Positions 2,890 to 25,259 of a stretch of DNA of 47,384 bases are shown in pieces. How positions within the stretch are numbered: position 1 is the first letter of the stretch; each line of letters starts with the position of its first letter. The stretch spans positions 1-47,384 of the forward strand of contig JAURNL010000097.1 in assembly GCA_030830205.1 (NCBI GenBank), written 5' to 3'. The position numbers and the translations under genes are program-made. The notes under the pieces are model-generated. The model was not told where the DNA came from. It ran no database searches and worked only from the letters and a program-made list of their open reading frames with translations. This DNA comes from Crocinitomicaceae bacterium (GTDB taxonomy: Bacteria > Bacteroidota > Bacteroidia > Flavobacteriales_D > Crocinitomicaceae).

Positions 2890-2913
2890 AATCACAAGAA
2901 ATTCGTATTTTTG
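2882..2913 (+). promoter_or_regulatory. Promoter of the SRP RNA gene (-33 TTG, -7 TATTTTTG)
   Basis: TATTTTTG at 2906-2913 matches TAnnTTTG, and a TTG at 2882-2884 lies 21 bases upstream, within the usual spacing. The predicted RNA 5' end (GGGG at 2917) begins 3 bases after the element. This gives a local estimate of the -7-to-start distance. Confidence 0.8.
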
Positions 2914-2916
2914 CAT

Positions 2917-3014
2917 GGGGTAAGTCTTTTACGACCAGCTCCCTCTGAATCCTCCAGGACAGGAATGTAGCAAAGGTAAGAGGTTGTAGCGGTGCGATAA
3001 AAGTAGCTTACCCC
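2917..3014 (+). ncRNA. ffs: Signal recognition particle RNA (4.5S-type)
   Basis: This 98-base RNA pairs its ends perfectly (GGGGTAAG 2917-2924 with CTTACCCC 3007-3014). Further pairing joins CTTTTA (2926-2931) with TAAAAG (2998-3003) and ACC with GGT. The tip contains the conserved SRP domain IV type sequence, AGGACAGGAATGTAGCAAAGG at 2955-2975, inside a CCTCT/AGAGG stem. Together with Ffh it targets nascent membrane proteins. Seven Ts follow directly (3018-3024), serving as an intrinsic terminator tail. No Alu domain is present, as in most Gram-negative bacteria. Confidence 0.92.
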
Positions 3015-3033
3015 ATCTTTTTTTGTGTCTACC

Positions 3034-4047
3034 ATGAAAATTTCAGCTTCTATTTATTCCGACAACATCCGTCCGCTAAAGGCTGTAATTTCAGATTTAG
3101 AAGCAAATCAGGTTGATCTTCTGCACATCGATTGCAACGACGATTTAAAAGTTTTTGAGGACATTAAACAAATTCGAACTTGGTGCACATTACCAATTGA
3201 TTTGCATATCATCACAGCAGAACCAAGCAAATACTTTCCTTACCTACTTGAAAATCCTGTCGAATACCTCACTTTTCAAATAGAGGCGCTCAAAGAAGAA
3301 TTATATATTCCTCCAGCAATTACGGGTAAAAAAGGAGTTGCAATAGTGACCCCTACCCCAATTTCTGCATTTGAACCCTATGCTCACTTTGACTTTATCC
3401 TGATCATGGCAACAGTTCCAGGACAATCTGGCGGGGTATTTGACAAACTTAATTTCGACAAAATTCGTACTTTCAGAAAGCAATACCCTGATAAATCCAT
3501 ACATGTCGACGGTGGCGTAAATCCAGAAGTCTCTTTCATATTAAGACAAATGGGCGTCAGTACAGCCGTTTCAGGCTCTTACCTATTTAAAGAAGCAAGC
3601 GTTGGAAACGCGCTCATGAATCTTACCAAGCGCAGTATTGGTTCTAGTTATTGCGTAAGTGACTTTATGACGCCACTACATGAAACGCCTAAATTCCAAA
3701 TAGAAGGCCTTCAATTAATTCATGTATTACAAACAGTTGAAGATGGCCAATTAGGTGTTGCAATGGCAACCGATGCCAACAATAAGTTAATTGGCTTGGT
3801 TTCTAGTGCCGATATCAGAAAAGCAATACTTAAACAACTGCACGCAGGACTTGACCTAAACGCATTAAATCCTGAAAGCTTTATCAATGAGCGCCCCATT
3901 TGTATCCATGCTGATGCAACGGTACTTGAACTTTTACAACTCATTAAAAACAGCCCATTTGCAGTGCTGTATTTACCTGTTATCGACGCTACCCAACAAC
4001 TAATGGGTATCGTTCAATTCTCCAACCTGATCAAAGCAGAAATATGA
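3034..4047 (+). CDS. Ribulose-phosphate 3-epimerase family protein fused to a CBS-domain pair
   Basis: Residues 1-200 form a ribulose-phosphate 3-epimerase-like TIM barrel and about 205-337 a tandem CBS (Bateman) module, which in other enzymes binds nucleotides. The epimerase metal ligands are kept: H31 and D33 (HID), H58 (IDLH) and D159 (HVDGG). The family's MDGH and NPGFGGQ segments are altered to NDDL and VPGQSGG, so substrate or rate may differ. The ATG at 3034 is preferred; a GTG at 3025 lies in the SRP RNA terminator tail. The stop overlaps the next start by 4 bases. A C-terminal CBS pair on a pentose-phosphate enzyme recalls arabinose-5-phosphate isomerase KdsD. Housekeeping epimerase function is uncertain. 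Confidence 0.85.
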   Translation: MKISASIYSDNIRPLKAVISDLEANQVDLLHIDCNDDLKVFEDIKQIRTWCTLPIDLHIITAEPSKYFPYLLENPVEYLTFQIEALKEELYIPPAITGKKGVAIVTPTPISAFEPYAHFDFILIMATVPGQSGGVFDKLNFDKIRTFRKQYPDKSIHVDGGVNPEVSFILRQMGVSTAVSGSYLFKEASVGNALMNLTKRSIGSSYCVSDFMTPLHETPKFQIEGLQLIHVLQTVEDGQLGVAMATDANNKLIGLVSSADIRKAILKQLHAGLDLNALNPESFINERPICIHADATVLELLQLIKNSPFAVLYLPVIDATQQLMGIVQFSNLIKAEI

Positions 4048-5033
4048 TCATCGAACTAAAAAACAGTACAAAAGCGGCAGAGCTCGCTGAAGCGCACCAA
4101 GCGTTTCATATTTTCTACCAGGGTAAGGATTACCTTATTACAGGTAGTGCTTTAAAAGAAGTTCCTACTTCTCTTCAAGATTATACCAACCAACATTGGG
4201 TATTCTCAAACGACATTCAGTTGGCTTCACGCAAGTTTCAAGATCAAAAAAGACAAGTTGCTTTTGGAAATGTAACCATTGGGGGCCAAACAAACAACAC
4301 CATATTAATAGGCGGTCCTTGTTCGGTAGAATCTGAAGAACAATTGAGAGGAGCAGCTGAATTACTCGTTGATATGGGCCTTACCACGCTTAGAGGTGGA
4401 GCCTACAAGCCCAGGACAAGCCCCTACTCTTTTCAGGGAATGGGCCTTGAGGGTCTCCAACTTCTTGCTAAAATGCGCCAGGATTATGGCTTAAATGTAA
4501 TTACCGAGGCTCGTGATGCCTCGCATATCAACGAAATAATCGAACACACCGACATCATTCAAATTGGAGCAAAAGCCATGTATGATCAAGGTATTTTGCG
4601 TGCATGTGCAAAAATCAAAAAACCCGTACTTATCAAAAGGGGATTCGGAACAACTCTTCAAGAATTTGTTCAGGCAGCAGAATTTGTACTTTCTGGAGGC
4701 AACGAAAATGTAGTGCTCTGTGAGCGAGGCATCCGTACTTTTGAAACCGGCACACGTTTTACTTTAGATCTTTGTGGGGTTGCCTGGCTTCAAGAGTACA
4801 CCAACTTACCGATTATTTTAGATCCATCGCATGCAATGGGTTATGCCTACGGAGTTAATCCATTGGCGCGGGCTTGCGTAGCAATGGGAATTGATGGCTT
4901 GCTTATTGAGGCACACCCAAATCCAAAAGCGGCCAAATCTGATGCATCTCAGCAGCTCAATTATGAAGAATTCCGAAAACTTCATTCGGATATTCAAAAA
5001 GTTGCTCAAAGCGTTGGATTTCAAATTATTTAA
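4044..5033 (+). CDS. aroF: 3-deoxy-7-phosphoheptulonate (DAHP) synthase, type I-beta
   Basis: This enzyme condenses phosphoenolpyruvate with erythrose 4-phosphate, the first step of the shikimate pathway. About 80 N-terminal residues resemble the small regulatory ferredoxin-like domain of type I-beta enzymes. The barrel follows, with GGPCSVES, KPRTSPYSFQG (K122, the erythrose-4-phosphate loop that separates DAHP synthase from KdsA), LIKRG, CERGIRTFE, DPSHAMG and IEAHPNP. Length (329) is normal and there is no chorismate mutase domain. It overlaps the epimerase-CBS gene by ATGA and is followed 2 bases later by a KdsC-like phosphatase, so it may serve something besides aromatic amino acids. Confidence 0.9.
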   Translation: MIIELKNSTKAAELAEAHQAFHIFYQGKDYLITGSALKEVPTSLQDYTNQHWVFSNDIQLASRKFQDQKRQVAFGNVTIGGQTNNTILIGGPCSVESEEQLRGAAELLVDMGLTTLRGGAYKPRTSPYSFQGMGLEGLQLLAKMRQDYGLNVITEARDASHINEIIEHTDIIQIGAKAMYDQGILRACAKIKKPVLIKRGFGTTLQEFVQAAEFVLSGGNENVVLCERGIRTFETGTRFTLDLCGVAWLQEYTNLPIILDPSHAMGYAYGVNPLARACVAMGIDGLLIEAHPNPKAAKSDASQQLNYEEFRKLHSDIQKVAQSVGFQII

Positions 5034-5035
5034 CT

Positions 5036-5701
5036 ATGGTACTTGAACTCAATATCAAAAGTTTGTGTAAGACAAACGGCATCGAATTCGACGATTTTCT
5101 TGCTGATCTCGATGTGGAAAATGTCAATGAATTATCGGTCTACGATCTTGAAGCAATTTGCGAAGAATATGAACTTGATTTACAGGCCTTATTATTTACT
5201 CCATTATTTTCTCAAGCAAATATTGACAAGAAAATAAAAGAGATAAAAATGCTCGTCCTTGATGTTGATGGAGTGCTAACTGATGGCGGAATGTATGTAA
5301 GTGAAAACGGCGACCAAATGAAGCGCTACCATACCCATGACGGACTTGCTTTACTCGAACTCAGCAAGAGTAAAAAGTTGGAACTCGGTATTATTTCTTC
5401 GGGATTTACCCAACATATGGTTCAAGATCGTGCGGCGTTGCTTGGCATTGAGCGTGTGTACGTTGGACGCGAGCCCAAACTAAGTATTCTTAACGCATGG
5501 TGTAAAGAAATGAATATTTCAACCAAAGAAGTTGCTTTTATTGGCGACGATCGCAATGACCTTGAAATCATGAAAGCAGTTGGCTTGGCTATTTGTCCTG
5601 CATCTGCAGTAGCGTCTGTAAAGAGCATCTCAGATATTATCTTGAGCCGTAACGGCGGTGCAGCCTGCGTAAGAGAATTCATCGACAATTACTTGGGTTA
5701 A
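5036..5701 (+). CDS. KdsC/YrbI-type HAD phosphatase with N-terminal extension
   Basis: Residues 70-221 are a class C0 HAD phosphatase like KdsC, which removes phosphate from Kdo 8-phosphate. They carry the DVDGVLTDGG motif with nucleophile D76 and D78, HDG, IISSG, GDDRND and the GGAACVRE end typical of KdsC. Residues 1-70 are extra: helical, acidic, with a spacing (GIEFDDFL..LSVYDLEAICEEYELD) that resembles a small helix-turn-helix fold. KdsC normally lacks this. Co-transcription with DAHP synthase and the epimerase-CBS protein suggests a 3-deoxy-ulosonate phosphate as substrate, either Kdo 8-phosphate or DAHP. An overlapping frame at 5043 is a shadow. Confidence 0.85.
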   Translation: MVLELNIKSLCKTNGIEFDDFLADLDVENVNELSVYDLEAICEEYELDLQALLFTPLFSQANIDKKIKEIKMLVLDVDGVLTDGGMYVSENGDQMKRYHTHDGLALLELSKSKKLELGIISSGFTQHMVQDRAALLGIERVYVGREPKLSILNAWCKEMNISTKEVAFIGDDRNDLEIMKAVGLAICPASAVASVKSISDIILSRNGGAACVREFIDNYLG

Positions 5702-5733: not shown

Positions 5734-6954
5734 ATGTCTGTCACTCACATCGGCATCATCCGAGAAGGTAAAATCCCACCTGATTTCAGAGTACCACTAA
5801 GCCCAGCTCAATGCGTACAATTAGAAAAGGTATATCCGAATGTTAAAGTAACGGTTCAAGCATCTCCTATTCGTTGCTTTGCAGATGAGGCATATACAGC
5901 AATTGGAATCGATGTACAGGAAGATCTCAGCCACTGTGATATTTTATTGGGGGTGAAAGAAGTTCCAATGGCACAACTCATTGCGGGCAAAACCTATCTA
6001 TTCTTTTCTCACACTTTTAAAAAACAAGCCTACAACCGCGCCTTACTGCAGGCAATTCTGCATAAAAGAATCCGATTAATCGATTACGAGGTGCTTAAAG
6101 ACGCCCAAAACAAGCGGATTATTGGTTTTGGTCGATATGCTGGTGTGGTAGGTGCTTACAATGCCTTTTTAACATATGGACTTAAAAGTGGCGCTTATAG
6201 TATCAAGCCTGCGCACCTATGTGCAGACCGCAAAGAAGTAGAAGCCGAATTAAAAAAAGTGGTGCTGCCACCTGACTTTAAATTGGTGCTTACTGGCTAC
6301 GGACGCGTTGGCAATGGCGCCAGAGAAATTGTCAATCTGTTACCCATCAAAGAAGTGGACCCAGATGTCTATCTTCACCAACAACACCAAGAAGCTGTTT
6401 TTACACACTTAGATACTCATCAATACTTCTGCAGACAGTCCGATGGAGGTTTTGACAAAAAAGAATTTTACAACCAACCTGAATTGTATCAAAGCAATTT
6501 TGGTGCCTTTGCACAACGGAGTAATGTGTATATTTCTTGTCATTTTTGGTCGTCTAAATCACCATTTATCTTGACCCAACAAATGCTCCAAGACCCAACG
6601 CATTCGCTGCAAGTAGTTGCCGATGTATCTTGTGATATCGCTGGACCAATTGCCTGCACCTTGCGTCCAAGCAAAATTGGTTCATCCATGTATGGTTATG
6701 ATCCTCACACCAACACAGAAGTAGATATGCACAAGCCCGGTGCCATTGCCGTCATGGCAGTAGACAACCTTCCTTGTGAGCTTTCCAAAGACGCTTCTGA
6801 AGATTTTGGTTCGGAGTTATTAAGAAGTGTATTCCCAGTATTGTTGGGTCCCGATCCCGATGGTATTATCTTTAGAGGTACTCAAACCACTTTGGAAGGC
6901 CAACTAAATGAACCTTTTCAATATTTGGTAACTTATCTAGATGGCCTAGAGTGA
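5734..6954 (+). CDS. Saccharopine dehydrogenase (LYS1)-like / alanine dehydrogenase-fold oxidoreductase
   Basis: This 406-residue NAD(P)-dependent enzyme has the alanine dehydrogenase/PntA N-terminal fold. It resembles lysine-forming saccharopine dehydrogenase: the REGKIPPDFRVPLSP opening, a Lys in LGVKEVP (K75), a His in FFSHTFKK (H93), a Rossmann glycine motif TGYGRVGNGA, VADVSCDIAGP, and a C-terminal VDNLPCELSKDASEDFG segment. It would link lysine and saccharopine, perhaps in lysine breakdown; the direction is inferred. It begins 32 bases after the phosphatase gene and overlaps the next start by GTGA. The alternative is an unassigned member of the alanine dehydrogenase family. Confidence 0.8.
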   Translation: MSVTHIGIIREGKIPPDFRVPLSPAQCVQLEKVYPNVKVTVQASPIRCFADEAYTAIGIDVQEDLSHCDILLGVKEVPMAQLIAGKTYLFFSHTFKKQAYNRALLQAILHKRIRLIDYEVLKDAQNKRIIGFGRYAGVVGAYNAFLTYGLKSGAYSIKPAHLCADRKEVEAELKKVVLPPDFKLVLTGYGRVGNGAREIVNLLPIKEVDPDVYLHQQHQEAVFTHLDTHQYFCRQSDGGFDKKEFYNQPELYQSNFGAFAQRSNVYISCHFWSSKSPFILTQQMLQDPTHSLQVVADVSCDIAGPIACTLRPSKIGSSMYGYDPHTNTEVDMHKPGAIAVMAVDNLPCELSKDASEDFGSELLRSVFPVLLGPDPDGIIFRGTQTTLEGQLNEPFQYLVTYLDGLE

Positions 6955-21935: not shown

Positions 21936-22634
21936 ATGGAGACAAAAAACATTGCCATCATCGGCGCATCTAAAGGCATAGGCTTTGCATTAGCCAAACA
22001 ATTACTTCACGAAGGTCATATTGTTTTAGCCACTTATTCTCAAACTTCACCAACCTATGAGCATCCCAATTTAAAATGGGTGCAATTTGATGCCATGAAT
22101 CCAACACCCATTGCATTTCCTGAAATAGTTGACGGTCTTGTATATTGCCCTGGAACTATTTCACTCAAACCATTTAACCGATTTTCTTCTGCTGATTTTG
22201 AGGCTGACTATCGTTTACAAGTAGTTGGAGCTATTCAAACCATTCAACAAGCGCTTCCATTTTTAAAGAAAAGTGAACAAGCATCAGTGATCCTATTTTC
22301 AACAGTTGCAGTTCAACAAGGTTTACCATTCCATTCTTTGGTGTCCACTTCAAAAGGTGCAATTGAAGGGCTAACCCGAGCATTAGCAGCAGAGTTTTCG
22401 CCTAAAATTCGTGTGAATGCAATTGCGCCTTCTCTTACGCATACACCTCTCGCTGAAAATCTACTTAATTCAGATGCCAAAAAAGAGGCGAATGCTGCAA
22501 GGCACCCTCTTAAAAGAGTTGGTGAACCCGAAGACATTGCAGCTATGGCAGCATTCCTCTTAGGAAACAATGCTACTTGGATTACTGGTCAAATTATGCA
22601 TGTGGATGGCGGTATTTCAAGTCTTCGTGTATGA
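21936..22634 (+). CDS. Short-chain dehydrogenase/reductase-like protein lacking the catalytic Tyr
   Basis: This 232-residue Rossmann protein has the SDR cofactor motif GASKGIG, a catalytic-type Ser (S122 in ILFSTV), and the C-terminal GQIMHVDGG. In the normal YxxxK site the Lys is kept (K140) but the Tyr position holds Val (V136, context LVSTSKGA). Classical SDR catalysis needs that Tyr, so this may be a non-standard reductase or a binding protein. I recall similar Tyr-less SDRs beside photolyase genes in other light-responsive clusters, without having checked. It overlaps the next gene by ATGA. Confidence 0.88.
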   Translation: METKNIAIIGASKGIGFALAKQLLHEGHIVLATYSQTSPTYEHPNLKWVQFDAMNPTPIAFPEIVDGLVYCPGTISLKPFNRFSSADFEADYRLQVVGAIQTIQQALPFLKKSEQASVILFSTVAVQQGLPFHSLVSTSKGAIEGLTRALAAEFSPKIRVNAIAPSLTHTPLAENLLNSDAKKEANAARHPLKRVGEPEDIAAMAAFLLGNNATWITGQIMHVDGGISSLRV

Positions 22635-23725
22635 TGCCCCTACTTTCCATCTCGGAAATTTATGCGCTTATTGATCAATTCGATCCAGTTCATTATGGTA
22701 AAACTCGTAATTACCAAAACGGCGGAGTTTCCAAGTTGTCTGCCTATTTATCCAGAGGAATAATTTCTACGCGCCAAGTGTATGAACGCCTTCGGCAGAG
22801 GGGAATTACCCATTATGAGATGGAGGCTTTTCTTATGGAATTATGCTGGCGCGATCACTCACAGCGTATTTGGCAGCACCATAATCCCCAAATTGAGGTG
22901 CGAACAGCGCAACATTTTATATACAACGAGAACCAATTACCGACTCCAGTATTAGAGACAAACACAGGTATTCATGCTATTGACGATGCACTGCGCACAC
23001 TCAAAACAACGGGTTATATGCACAATCACTTACGCATGTATTTGGCTGCGCTTGTTTGTAATCATTACGGGGCTCATTGGCGCACCGCAGCCAAATGGTT
23101 TTTTGGACAACTCTGTGACGCTGATGCCGCAAGTAATCACTTGAGTTGGCAATGGGTTTGTGGAGCCAATGCACCTAAAGTCTATTATGCCAACCAAGAC
23201 AACATCAATAAGTACACCGACAGCAAACAATCGGGTAGCTCACTTGATACTTCTTATGAAAATTTACCTTCGTTGCATATTACTACCGCTTGGCAAAACC
23301 CTGACTATCCATTTCGACCAAGTAGTACCAATGTAGCTATCCTCAACAAAACAATTCCTACTCATTTATACACGCCTTATCACCTCGATCCAAATTGGAG
23401 AAAAGAGGAAACTGCCAACAAAATATTATTTTGGGACCTAGACCACTGGAATGATTATCCATTTACCAAAAGTGTATTTGACTGGATCAACGAACTCGCA
23501 TTGGTACAAATACCAGATATACAGATTGTTGTGAGCACATGGGAGGAATTTAAAGGGAATTTGGACCTGAAAAAGACATTTACAAAAGAACATCCATTAA
23601 CAATCTCCTATGGTTTACAATGCGATCAACGTGATTGGTTATGGCCTGTAGCTTCTTTGGAAAAACCAGGTTCATTTTTCAATTACTGGAAAAAAGTACA
23701 AAAATACTTGCGCCGTGAAGACTGA
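22631..23725 (+). CDS. Photolyase-like protein: FAD-binding domain first, unassigned C-terminal region
   Basis: This 364-residue protein opens directly with the photolyase/cryptochrome FAD domain: [53 protein letters not shown] and [16 protein letters not shown] (about residues 15-195). The usual N-terminal antenna (Rossmann) domain is absent. Instead, residues 265-364 form a separate region ([21 protein letters not shown]) with an alternating strand-helix look. It may be a rearranged or permuted antenna domain, or something else. The start is an ATG overlapping the SDR stop. A DNA-repair or light-sensing flavoprotein is inferred; it is not a standard full-length photolyase. Confidence 0.82.
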
Positions 23726-25259
23726 TGTGGGGGTAGTATGGTTCAAACGTGACTTGCGCCTTCAAGACCACGCCGCATTGTTTGCTGCAGAGCAAAGCGA
23801 TTTGCCCTTGATTTACATTTGGATGTTGGAACCAAACGAATGGTCGGCTCCAGAAAATTCACTTCGACACTGGCAATTTCAGATTGCTTCTATTCAAGAA
23901 TTGAATTCAGAATTAGCACTGATTGGTCAAAGGATTCATATTTGCTGGGGAAATGCGCTCAGTATTTTTGAAGCCCTACATCATGAATTTAAGCTCAAAT
24001 CCGTTTGGAGTTATCAAGAATCAGGGCCACCAAGAACATATGCACGTGACCGAGAAATTAGCGCTTATTTCAATCAAATGCGAATCACCTGGACTCAATT
24101 TCAGCGCGATGGAATCATACGAGGCATAAAAAATAGAAAAGACTGGGATAAAGCTTGGTTTGCTCATGTGAATAGTCCAACCATTTATTTCGAACCCAAA
24201 TTAGATCGCAATACTGTCAATTGGGAAAATCCATTTCATTTACCCACAACTCTTGAAAAACAACTCACCAATTATCCTACTCAATTTCAAAAAGCAGGCC
24301 CTAAATATGCCCAACGCTATCTAACAGACTTTCTTGAAAAAAGAAGTTGGCATTATCAAAACGGAATCTCCAAACCAGAATTGAGTAGGAAAAGCTGCAG
24401 TCGGCTTTCTCCTTTTCTCGCCTGGGGAAATCTTTCCATCAGACAAGTAGTCAGGGCAAGCTCTTCCTATCTGAAGAATTCAGCAAACAAAAAAAACTTA
24501 GATGCCTTCTTAACTCGTTTACATTGGCATTGTCATTTTATCCAAAAATTTGAAACGGATTGTAGTTATGCAGAAAAATGCATTAACAAAGCATATGAAG
24601 GTTTGTCGTATCCGCACGATATCCATTTACTGAAGGCCTGGAAATCTGGTCATACTGGTTTTCCTCTTGTAGATGCCAACATGCGTTGTCTACAACAAAC
24701 AGGGTGGATAAATTTTAGGATGCGGGCACTGCTTGTTTCCTTTTTGTGTCACCACTTACTTCAGAACTGGAAGGATGGTGTAGATCATTTAGCTAATCTT
24801 TTTTTAGACTTTGAACCCGGTATTCATTATCCTCAGTTTCAGATGCAAGCAGGTACCACTGGGGTTAACACCATCCGTGTGTATAATCCTGTGCATAATA
24901 GTTATAAACACGATCCGGAGGCGATTTTTATTAAAAAATGGGTGCCAGAGCTTGCAAGTCTCCCAATTGCTTTCGTACATGAACCATGGAAAATGACCGA
25001 AATGGATATGGAATTAGCTGACTTTAGGTTAGGAGTCGATTACCCATTACCCATTATTGATCCAACAAATTCAAGAAAAGAAGATCGTAAATTTCTTTGG
25101 GATATACGAAAAAGCAATCAAGGAAAAATAGAAGGGCAGAAAATAATTCAATCTTTGGTCAGGCCATCAAAGGCGCGCCAAGAACCAAAACGCCAGAAGG
25201 CCTATGGTAAGAGAAACAAAGATATTGAATCCGAAAATGGCCAATTGCCCTTGTTGTAA
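23715..25259 (+). CDS. Cryptochrome/deoxyribodipyrimidine photolyase family protein
   Basis: This 514-residue flavoprotein has the full architecture: the N-terminal antenna domain ([20 protein letters not shown]) and the FAD domain ([72 protein letters not shown]). The usual WQW-AGTG segment is replaced by [16 protein letters not shown], suggesting a cryptochrome-like subgroup, so repair activity is uncertain. The start is a GTG at 23715 inside the upstream gene's end (11-base overlap). The basic tail of about 30 residues is encoded where the opposite-strand crcB also codes. Confidence 0.88.

Follow-up and report, generated by a model that had tools for sequence, protein, structure and literature searches.

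Background

Kdo (3-deoxy-D-manno-oct-2-ulosonic acid) is the sugar acid that links the lipid anchor of the outer coat to the remainder, and its standard pathway runs through KdsD, KdsA, KdsC and KdsB. To our knowledge Kdo is regarded as a hinge that nearly all lipopolysaccharides share, and KdsA and KdsD are taken to be fixed in its supply. Here we examine a trio of adjacent genes from a member of the Crocinitomicaceae (Bacteroidota; GenBank assembly GCA_030830205.1) that resembles this pathway in outline and differs from it in its enzymes. The trio lies on contig JAURNL010000097.1, the analysed stretch of which, positions 1 to 47,384 of the forward strand, is called the window below. It codes for an epimerase-like protein with a CBS pair, a protein related to 3-deoxy-D-arabino-heptulosonate 7-phosphate (DAHP) synthase, and a phosphatase of the KdsC family, and a first-pass annotation made from the sequence alone had read it as a possible alternative ulosonate pathway. 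Gene content across the order, a reversal within the family and a co-changing residue of KdsB support the reading that the trio probably replaces KdsD and KdsA as the supplier of the ulosonate used by KdsB.

Results and discussion

A conserved three-gene module

The three genes of the trio are as follows:

3034..4047, + strand: gene 1, epimerase-CBS protein, 337 aa; a ribulose-phosphate 3-epimerase (RPE)-like TIM barrel at residues 1 to ~200 and a C-terminal CBS pair
4044..5033, + strand: gene 2, DAHP-synthase-like protein, here named DAHPS-2, 329 aa; type I beta, with an N-terminal extension
5036..5701, + strand: gene 3, KdsC-family HAD phosphatase, 221 aa; with an extra N-terminal helical domain

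The tight coupling reported at first pass holds, with a 4-base overlap between genes 1 and 2 and a 2-base gap between genes 2 and 3, and the overlap is preserved in 72 of the 78 loci in which it was measured. There is also an in-frame GTG at 3025, ahead of gene 1 as given here, but its relatives start at MKISAS. Among 30 loci of the family, the window's included, a DAHPS gene follows the epimerase-CBS gene in every case and a KdsC-like gene in 29, the single exception being a locus that stops inside the DAHPS gene. For 80 named loci the corresponding counts are 79 and 73, and at all the misses the contig ends at, or no more than 300 bases past, the last gene seen. Carriers of the trio include three records titled Fluviicola (L080, L090 and L105). 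Because the genes co-occur in order across these loci, the trio is confirmed as genuine and is neither chance nor a local oddity.

To follow the spread of the module, 399 genomes of the order were sampled, 217 from the window's family and 182 from other families, and those with an epimerase-CBS match of E ~1e-83 or better were counted as carriers. By this measure 200 of the 217 family genomes and six of the 182 others are carriers, so that an arrangement first noticed in one genome is conserved well beyond it. Outside the family, all carriers but G102 were read, and each of these five has the full trio (G014, G040 and G096, which belong to one genus, G021 and G032). At the level of the phylum 375 genomes were sampled and up to five candidates scored per genome; an epimerase-CBS match at E <=1e-40 came only from the window's own genome and from G008. 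The open-access literature was searched as well, and among the matches listed no title or opening of an abstract describes a trio of this kind or a replacement for Kdo in Crocinitomicaceae.

KdsA and KdsD are absent from carriers of the trio

Kdo genes were sought in 100 genomes of the order, 29 with epimerase-CBS (24 from the window's family and five from others) and 71 without, using the models TIGR01362 for KdsA, TIGR00393 for KdsD with its SIS domain, TIGR00466 for KdsB and PF04413 for WaaA. No KdsA match over the cut-off was recovered from the 29 carriers, from four carriers assembled as single contigs or from 80 further carriers, which makes 0 of 113 altogether, the window's genome included. 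KdsD, whether over the cut-off or at the strength usual for the short KdsD of Flavobacteriales, was likewise found in 0 of 33 carriers (the 29 and the four single-contig genomes); the SIS match of one carrier, G076, is a distant one (92.5 bits), and the best TIGR00393 match of the window's genome has an E of 9.8e-6. Among the 71 trio-free genomes, KdsA is over the cut-off in 66, two (G011 and G042) have truncated matches just under it near contig ends, and three (G005, G016 and G081) have no match. An SIS KdsD, full or short, occurs in 62 of the same 71, and in a 63rd (G051) as a contig-end fragment; seven have a CBS match only in its place, and G081 has neither an SIS KdsD nor a CBS match. 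Since the same models thus recover KdsA in 66/71 and SIS KdsD in 63/71 trio-free genomes, insensitivity of the models was rejected as the cause of the absence; assembly gaps were rejected too, the single-contig genomes G100, G106, G109 and G130 lacking both genes while carrying the epimerase.

The later steps are largely retained. KdsB is over the cut-off in 27 of the 29 carriers, with no such match in G021 and G055, and WaaA was found in 27/29. As to whether the window's genome has kdsA and kdsD apart from the trio, a question that bore directly on the first-pass proposal, neither was found, and KdsB is retained (G000:C44:6734-7426; 208.9 bits against a cut-off of 155.2).

Seventeen genomes of the family have no full-length epimerase match. 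Pieces of the trio are present in four of these (G145, G329, G352 and G355), and in three others, all from one genus (G153, G187 and G314), KdsA is over the cut-off with KdsD adjacent, and no match to DAHPS-2 reaches the level seen in trios. The gene content of these three genomes points to a reversal to KdsA and KdsD within the family, which supports replacement.

A residue of KdsB changes with the pathway

The first comparison of KdsB drew on the order sample, from which it took 60 trio-free genomes (out of 71) and 27 carriers (out of 29, leaving aside G021 and G055), with all columns scanned. The sole perfectly separating column is residue 141 (numbering of the window's own KdsB), which is Ile in 27/27 trio-bearing and Val in 60/60 trio-free genomes; a control of 2000 draws, in which the family plus four random genomes took the place of the real carriers, gave no separating column. 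A follow-up on 25 further genomes, in which G145 was placed in the trio group on its DAHPS-2 alone, gave Ile in 18/19 of the trio group and Val in all three KdsA-bearing family members described above, so that Ile stands at this position in 45/46 trio genomes of both sets combined. Two solved CMP-Kdo synthetases have Val at the matching position when aligned, and PMC7717453 calls the FSR motif near residue 141 a substrate-binding motif.

On a tree of KdsB, in which all trio-free genomes of the order were labelled as KdsA users even though G005 and G016 showed none, four pathway changes and four residue changes are needed. The KdsB proteins of carriers from other families group with their own kin, that of G032 with family f8 (support 87) and those of the G014 group within family f3 (96); therefore KdsB did not travel with the trio.

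The components of the trio

The fusion of an epimerase to a CBS pair seen at first pass is borne out by family models: the protein matches PF00834 (ribulose-phosphate 3-epimerase family) with 82.2 bits and has a CBS pair. Against the equivalog model TIGR01163 for ribulose-phosphate 3-epimerase it scores 74.2 bits, under the cut-off of 212.6. Residues H31, D33, H58 and D159 are invariant in 25/25 epimerase-CBS rows and align with the rice enzyme, and we take this H, D, H, D pattern to be metal ligands. The kpsF (KpsF/KdsD) CBS model matches 9/9 epimerase-CBS proteins and is the top CBS family listed (best E 5.7e-12), which suggests that their CBS pair is somewhat nearer to that of KdsD than to other CBS families. 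The window's genome, for which a further rpe had been raised as a point to check, has two rpe-like matches and hence a second one.

DAHPS-2 scores 315.7 bits with TIGR01361 (cut-off 267.75) and has the KPRTS motif, in agreement with its original assignment as a DAHP synthase. All 32 DAHPS-2 rows, the 24 trio rows (24/24) among them, retain KPRT and candidate metal ligands (C, H, E and D). The Arg of the GARN motif, retained in 10/10 trp-linked rows, is replaced by Lys, followed by A/S-M-Y, in 24/24 trio rows and 8/8 other DAHPS-2 rows; this Arg presumably binds phosphoenolpyruvate, an assignment which, like the roles of KPR(T/S) and the metal ligands, we take from general knowledge. DAHPS-2 is also without insertions present in the aligned KdsA rows. 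In a tree built without L075 (a chorismate-mutase fusion) and without the distant KdsA outgroup, the DAHPS-2 clade is split from trp-adjacent AroF enzymes (trp neighbors read by eye) at 100/100, and within it the trio rows group together at 80/73, which is not firm. Next to the trio rows lie DAHPS/KdsC-like gene pairs without the epimerase (L138 and L139), from genomes with KdsA and KdsD. Further members are found in kdsD-kdsA-kdsB clusters (L140:3808-6911 and L141:4399-7544), in a kdsD-kdsA cluster (L142:4159-6623) or standing alone (L164-L166). Judged by tree and gene neighborhood, the DAHPS-2 clade thus extends beyond the trio and is itself connected to Kdo genes.

In the other DAHP synthase of the window's genome (L002) the enzyme is fused to chorismate mutase. 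The cell therefore need not rely on the trio to make aromatic compounds, and the trio enzyme is not the sole aromatic entry, a point that the alternative-pathway proposal had left to be checked. This bears on the explanation that the trio belongs to aromatic and pentose-phosphate metabolism, as a regulated epimerase, a second DAHP synthase and a phosphatase for surplus DAHP, with the loss of KdsA and KdsD a coincidence. That DAHPS-2 scores as a DAHP synthase, and that its pairing with a KdsC-like gene occurs without the epimerase in KdsA genomes, would suit such a role; however, the absence of KdsA and KdsD accompanies the trio in four families and is reversed inside one genus, and with a second DAHP synthase at hand we consider this explanation distinctly unlikely.

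The product of gene 3 scores 127.8 bits with TIGR01670 (KdsC/YrbI; cut-off 106.95), and the KdsC-type assignment stands at the level of the family. It lies under the cut-offs of the equivalog models NF007019 for KdsC, Kdo-8-phosphate phosphatase (124.6 bits against 208) and for KDN-9-phosphate phosphatase. About 65 residues precede its HAD domain, and this extra N-terminal domain is absent in three trios of family f3. The predicted structure is nearest to solved KdsC/YrbI; among the best 50 rows of a fold search with this model the matches are to the HAD part only, with none to the N-terminal domain. The protein is not the only KdsC of its genome, as a second KdsC-family phosphatase was found there (G000:C71, L151).

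Points that weigh against replacement

Several observations weigh against the replacement of KdsD and KdsA by the trio. Ten family genomes were found to have neither the epimerase nor KdsA, one of them (G336) with a short DAHPS-like fragment; nine of the ten are 73 to 94% complete, and since G286 is 98% complete, some genomes of the family may lack both routes and perhaps have a third solution. Three of the ten (G256, G286 and G344) have a KdsB, with Ile at residue 141. They would fit an explanation in which Kdo has been given up, an unrelated pathway makes the substrate of KdsB and the trio is a bystander, but they are perhaps assembly gaps (89 to 98% complete), and 4/4 single-contig genomes searched carry the epimerase; we regard this bystander role as very improbable.

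The association with KdsB also has its exceptions. G312 has the trio and no KdsA, yet Val at KdsB 141 (KdsB at L280), and the KdsB tree places it as sister to the three KdsA-bearing family genomes. Supported branches of that tree give three pairs, two concordant and one without a difference, and with so few independent switches a sign test cannot reach significance. WaaA shows no separating column (20 genomes against 40) and was not found in the window's genome (93% complete, 122 contigs) or in G008. DAHPS-2 is present in KdsA- and KdsD-bearing genomes as well (L138-L142 and L164-L166), so the clade is not tied to the loss of Kdo genes; only the epimerase is. The likeness of the CBS pair of the window's protein to that of KdsD is slight, at 25.7 bits against 24.3 for the next CBS family. 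Finally, the ordinary KdsC persists alongside the phosphatase of the trio, with at least two KdsC-family matches in 29/29 carriers. Taken with these points, the alternative ulosonate pathway first proposed for the window is supported by the conservation of the trio, the second KdsC, the other aromatic entry and the absence of KdsA and KdsD; its product and activities we infer.

Aldolase-CBS fusions in other Flavobacteriales

The CBS-only genomes bear on how the acceptor sugar might be supplied. At five such loci we found a protein of ~336 residues, with like starts, encoded at the following positions:

aldolase-CBS fusions: L143:4715-5728, L145:4763-5773, L146:4570-5577, L148:4623-5630, L149:1565-2572

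By family models those of L143 and L145 combine a domain of the transaldolase/fructose-6-phosphate-aldolase family with a CBS pair that family scores place clearly nearest to that of KdsD; the proteins of L146, L148 and L149 look alike by eye, and G016 and G075 have just a contig-end fragment. The lineages with this fusion lack only the SIS KdsD and mostly keep KdsA, and in L143 the fusion adjoins KdsA. Aldolase-CBS may stand in for KdsD there as another supplier of arabinose 5-phosphate. With a KdsD-like CBS pair on both epimerase and aldolase, we read it as probably one regulator domain placed on different suppliers of acceptor sugars.

A proposed pathway and its product

Epimerases of the RPE fold invert the carbon next to a carbonyl. 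In the pathway that we propose, the trio would serve as a self-contained stand-in for the first half of Kdo synthesis. Epimerase-CBS would act on an aldose phosphate, inverting the position beside its carbonyl, the usual epimerase reaction moved by one carbon, and would so provide the acceptor aldehyde that KdsD otherwise gives. The end product of the pathway may be sensed by the KdsD-like CBS pair of this protein, which would then exert feedback. DAHPS-2 would then join this aldehyde to phosphoenolpyruvate in place of KdsA, and the KdsC-like phosphatase would take off the phosphate. The retained KdsB would load the resulting 2-keto-3-deoxy sugar acid onto CMP, and the retained WaaA would attach it to lipid A.

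On aldose phosphates the first step could convert either ribose 5-phosphate to arabinose 5-phosphate or erythrose 4-phosphate to threose 4-phosphate. We tentatively favor the latter, by which erythrose 4-phosphate would yield D-threose 4-phosphate and then, through a DAHPS-2 that retains a motif of the four-carbon type, 3-deoxy-D-lyxo-heptulosonate, an analogue of Kdo without C8. By our own derivation, 3-deoxy-D-lyxo-hept-2-ulosonate has the ring stereochemistry of Kdo minus C8, and the bulkier Ile of KdsB would suit a smaller substrate. It is accordingly conceivable, with about the same reserve, that in most of the family the Kdo of lipopolysaccharide has been replaced by this C7 analogue, activated by KdsB with the change Val141->Ile, and that the cassette spread between families and was once swapped back. 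The corresponding diacid, 3-deoxy-D-lyxo-heptulosaric acid (Dha), is a plant pectin sugar, the synthesis of which is listed as unknown in PMC12168206.

Replacement of KdsD and KdsA could also have left Kdo as the product, and we hold this form of it to be almost as likely as the C7 analogue: ribose 5-phosphate would be turned into its C2 epimer, arabinose 5-phosphate, and a DAHPS-2 shifted to arabinose 5-phosphate would make Kdo 8-phosphate. KdsB and WaaA are retained in most carriers, WaaA without a matching change, and the ordinary KdsC, which could act on Kdo 8-phosphate, is retained too, all of which Kdo as the product would account for. It sits less easily with a DAHPS-2 that retains KPRT and is without the insertions of KdsA, with a KdsB residue that switches with the pathway, and with the joint disappearance of KdsA and KdsD, while the aldolase-CBS lineages mostly keep KdsA.

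Neighboring genes

Two neighbors of the trio are probably not part of it:

2911..3017, + strand: small SRP (signal recognition particle) RNA gene, just upstream; RF04183, 109.5 bits (gathering 55.2)
5734..6954, + strand: alanine-dehydrogenase/transhydrogenase-like oxidoreductase gene; PF05222

In Crocinitomicaceae the oxidoreductase gene adjoins the trio (68 of the 80 named loci), but the five trio loci read outside the family gave no hit to it; it was therefore dropped as a member of the module. A relative of the oxidoreductase (53% identity) is encoded near the aldolase-CBS fusion in L146. Elsewhere in the window, at 22577-25259, lie two adjacent genes whose products by eye resemble the photolyase/cryptochrome family.

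Implications and comparison with known systems

If the trio does replace KdsD and KdsA, then nature can rebuild the supply line of the lipopolysaccharide hinge, and possibly even the hinge, by a replacement that is family-wide and reversible. Genes which by score would be annotated just as rpe, DAHP synthase and KdsC would also gain a function, and absent kdsA and kdsD need not mean absent lipopolysaccharide.

Set against the standard pathway of KdsD, KdsA, KdsC and KdsB, the proposed one has a like order of roles: a CBS-tailed supplier, a condensation by an enzyme of the DAHPS/KdsA fold, a KdsC-family phosphatase and KdsB. It differs in that the CBS-tailed enzyme is of the epimerase fold and not an SIS isomerase, and in that the condensing enzyme is DAHPS-like and not KdsA. 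The first enzyme is like ribulose-phosphate 3-epimerase in fold and metal-ligand pattern, whereas it falls far under the equivalog cut-off of that enzyme and adds the CBS pair. With aldolase-CBS it shares a TIM-barrel sugar-phosphate enzyme, a KdsD-like CBS pair and a genome that has no SIS KdsD, but the aldolase belongs to another enzyme family and its genomes mostly retain KdsA. DAHPS-2 is like type I beta DAHP synthase in score, KPRTS motif, metal ligands and N-terminal extension, and is set apart by the Lys in GARN, by its distinct clade and, in some genomes, by linkage to Kdo genes in place of trp genes. The phosphatase, lastly, has the HAD fold and the family score in common with the KDN-9-phosphate and Kdo-8-phosphate phosphatases of the KdsC family, while it lies under both equivalog cut-offs and adds an N-terminal domain.

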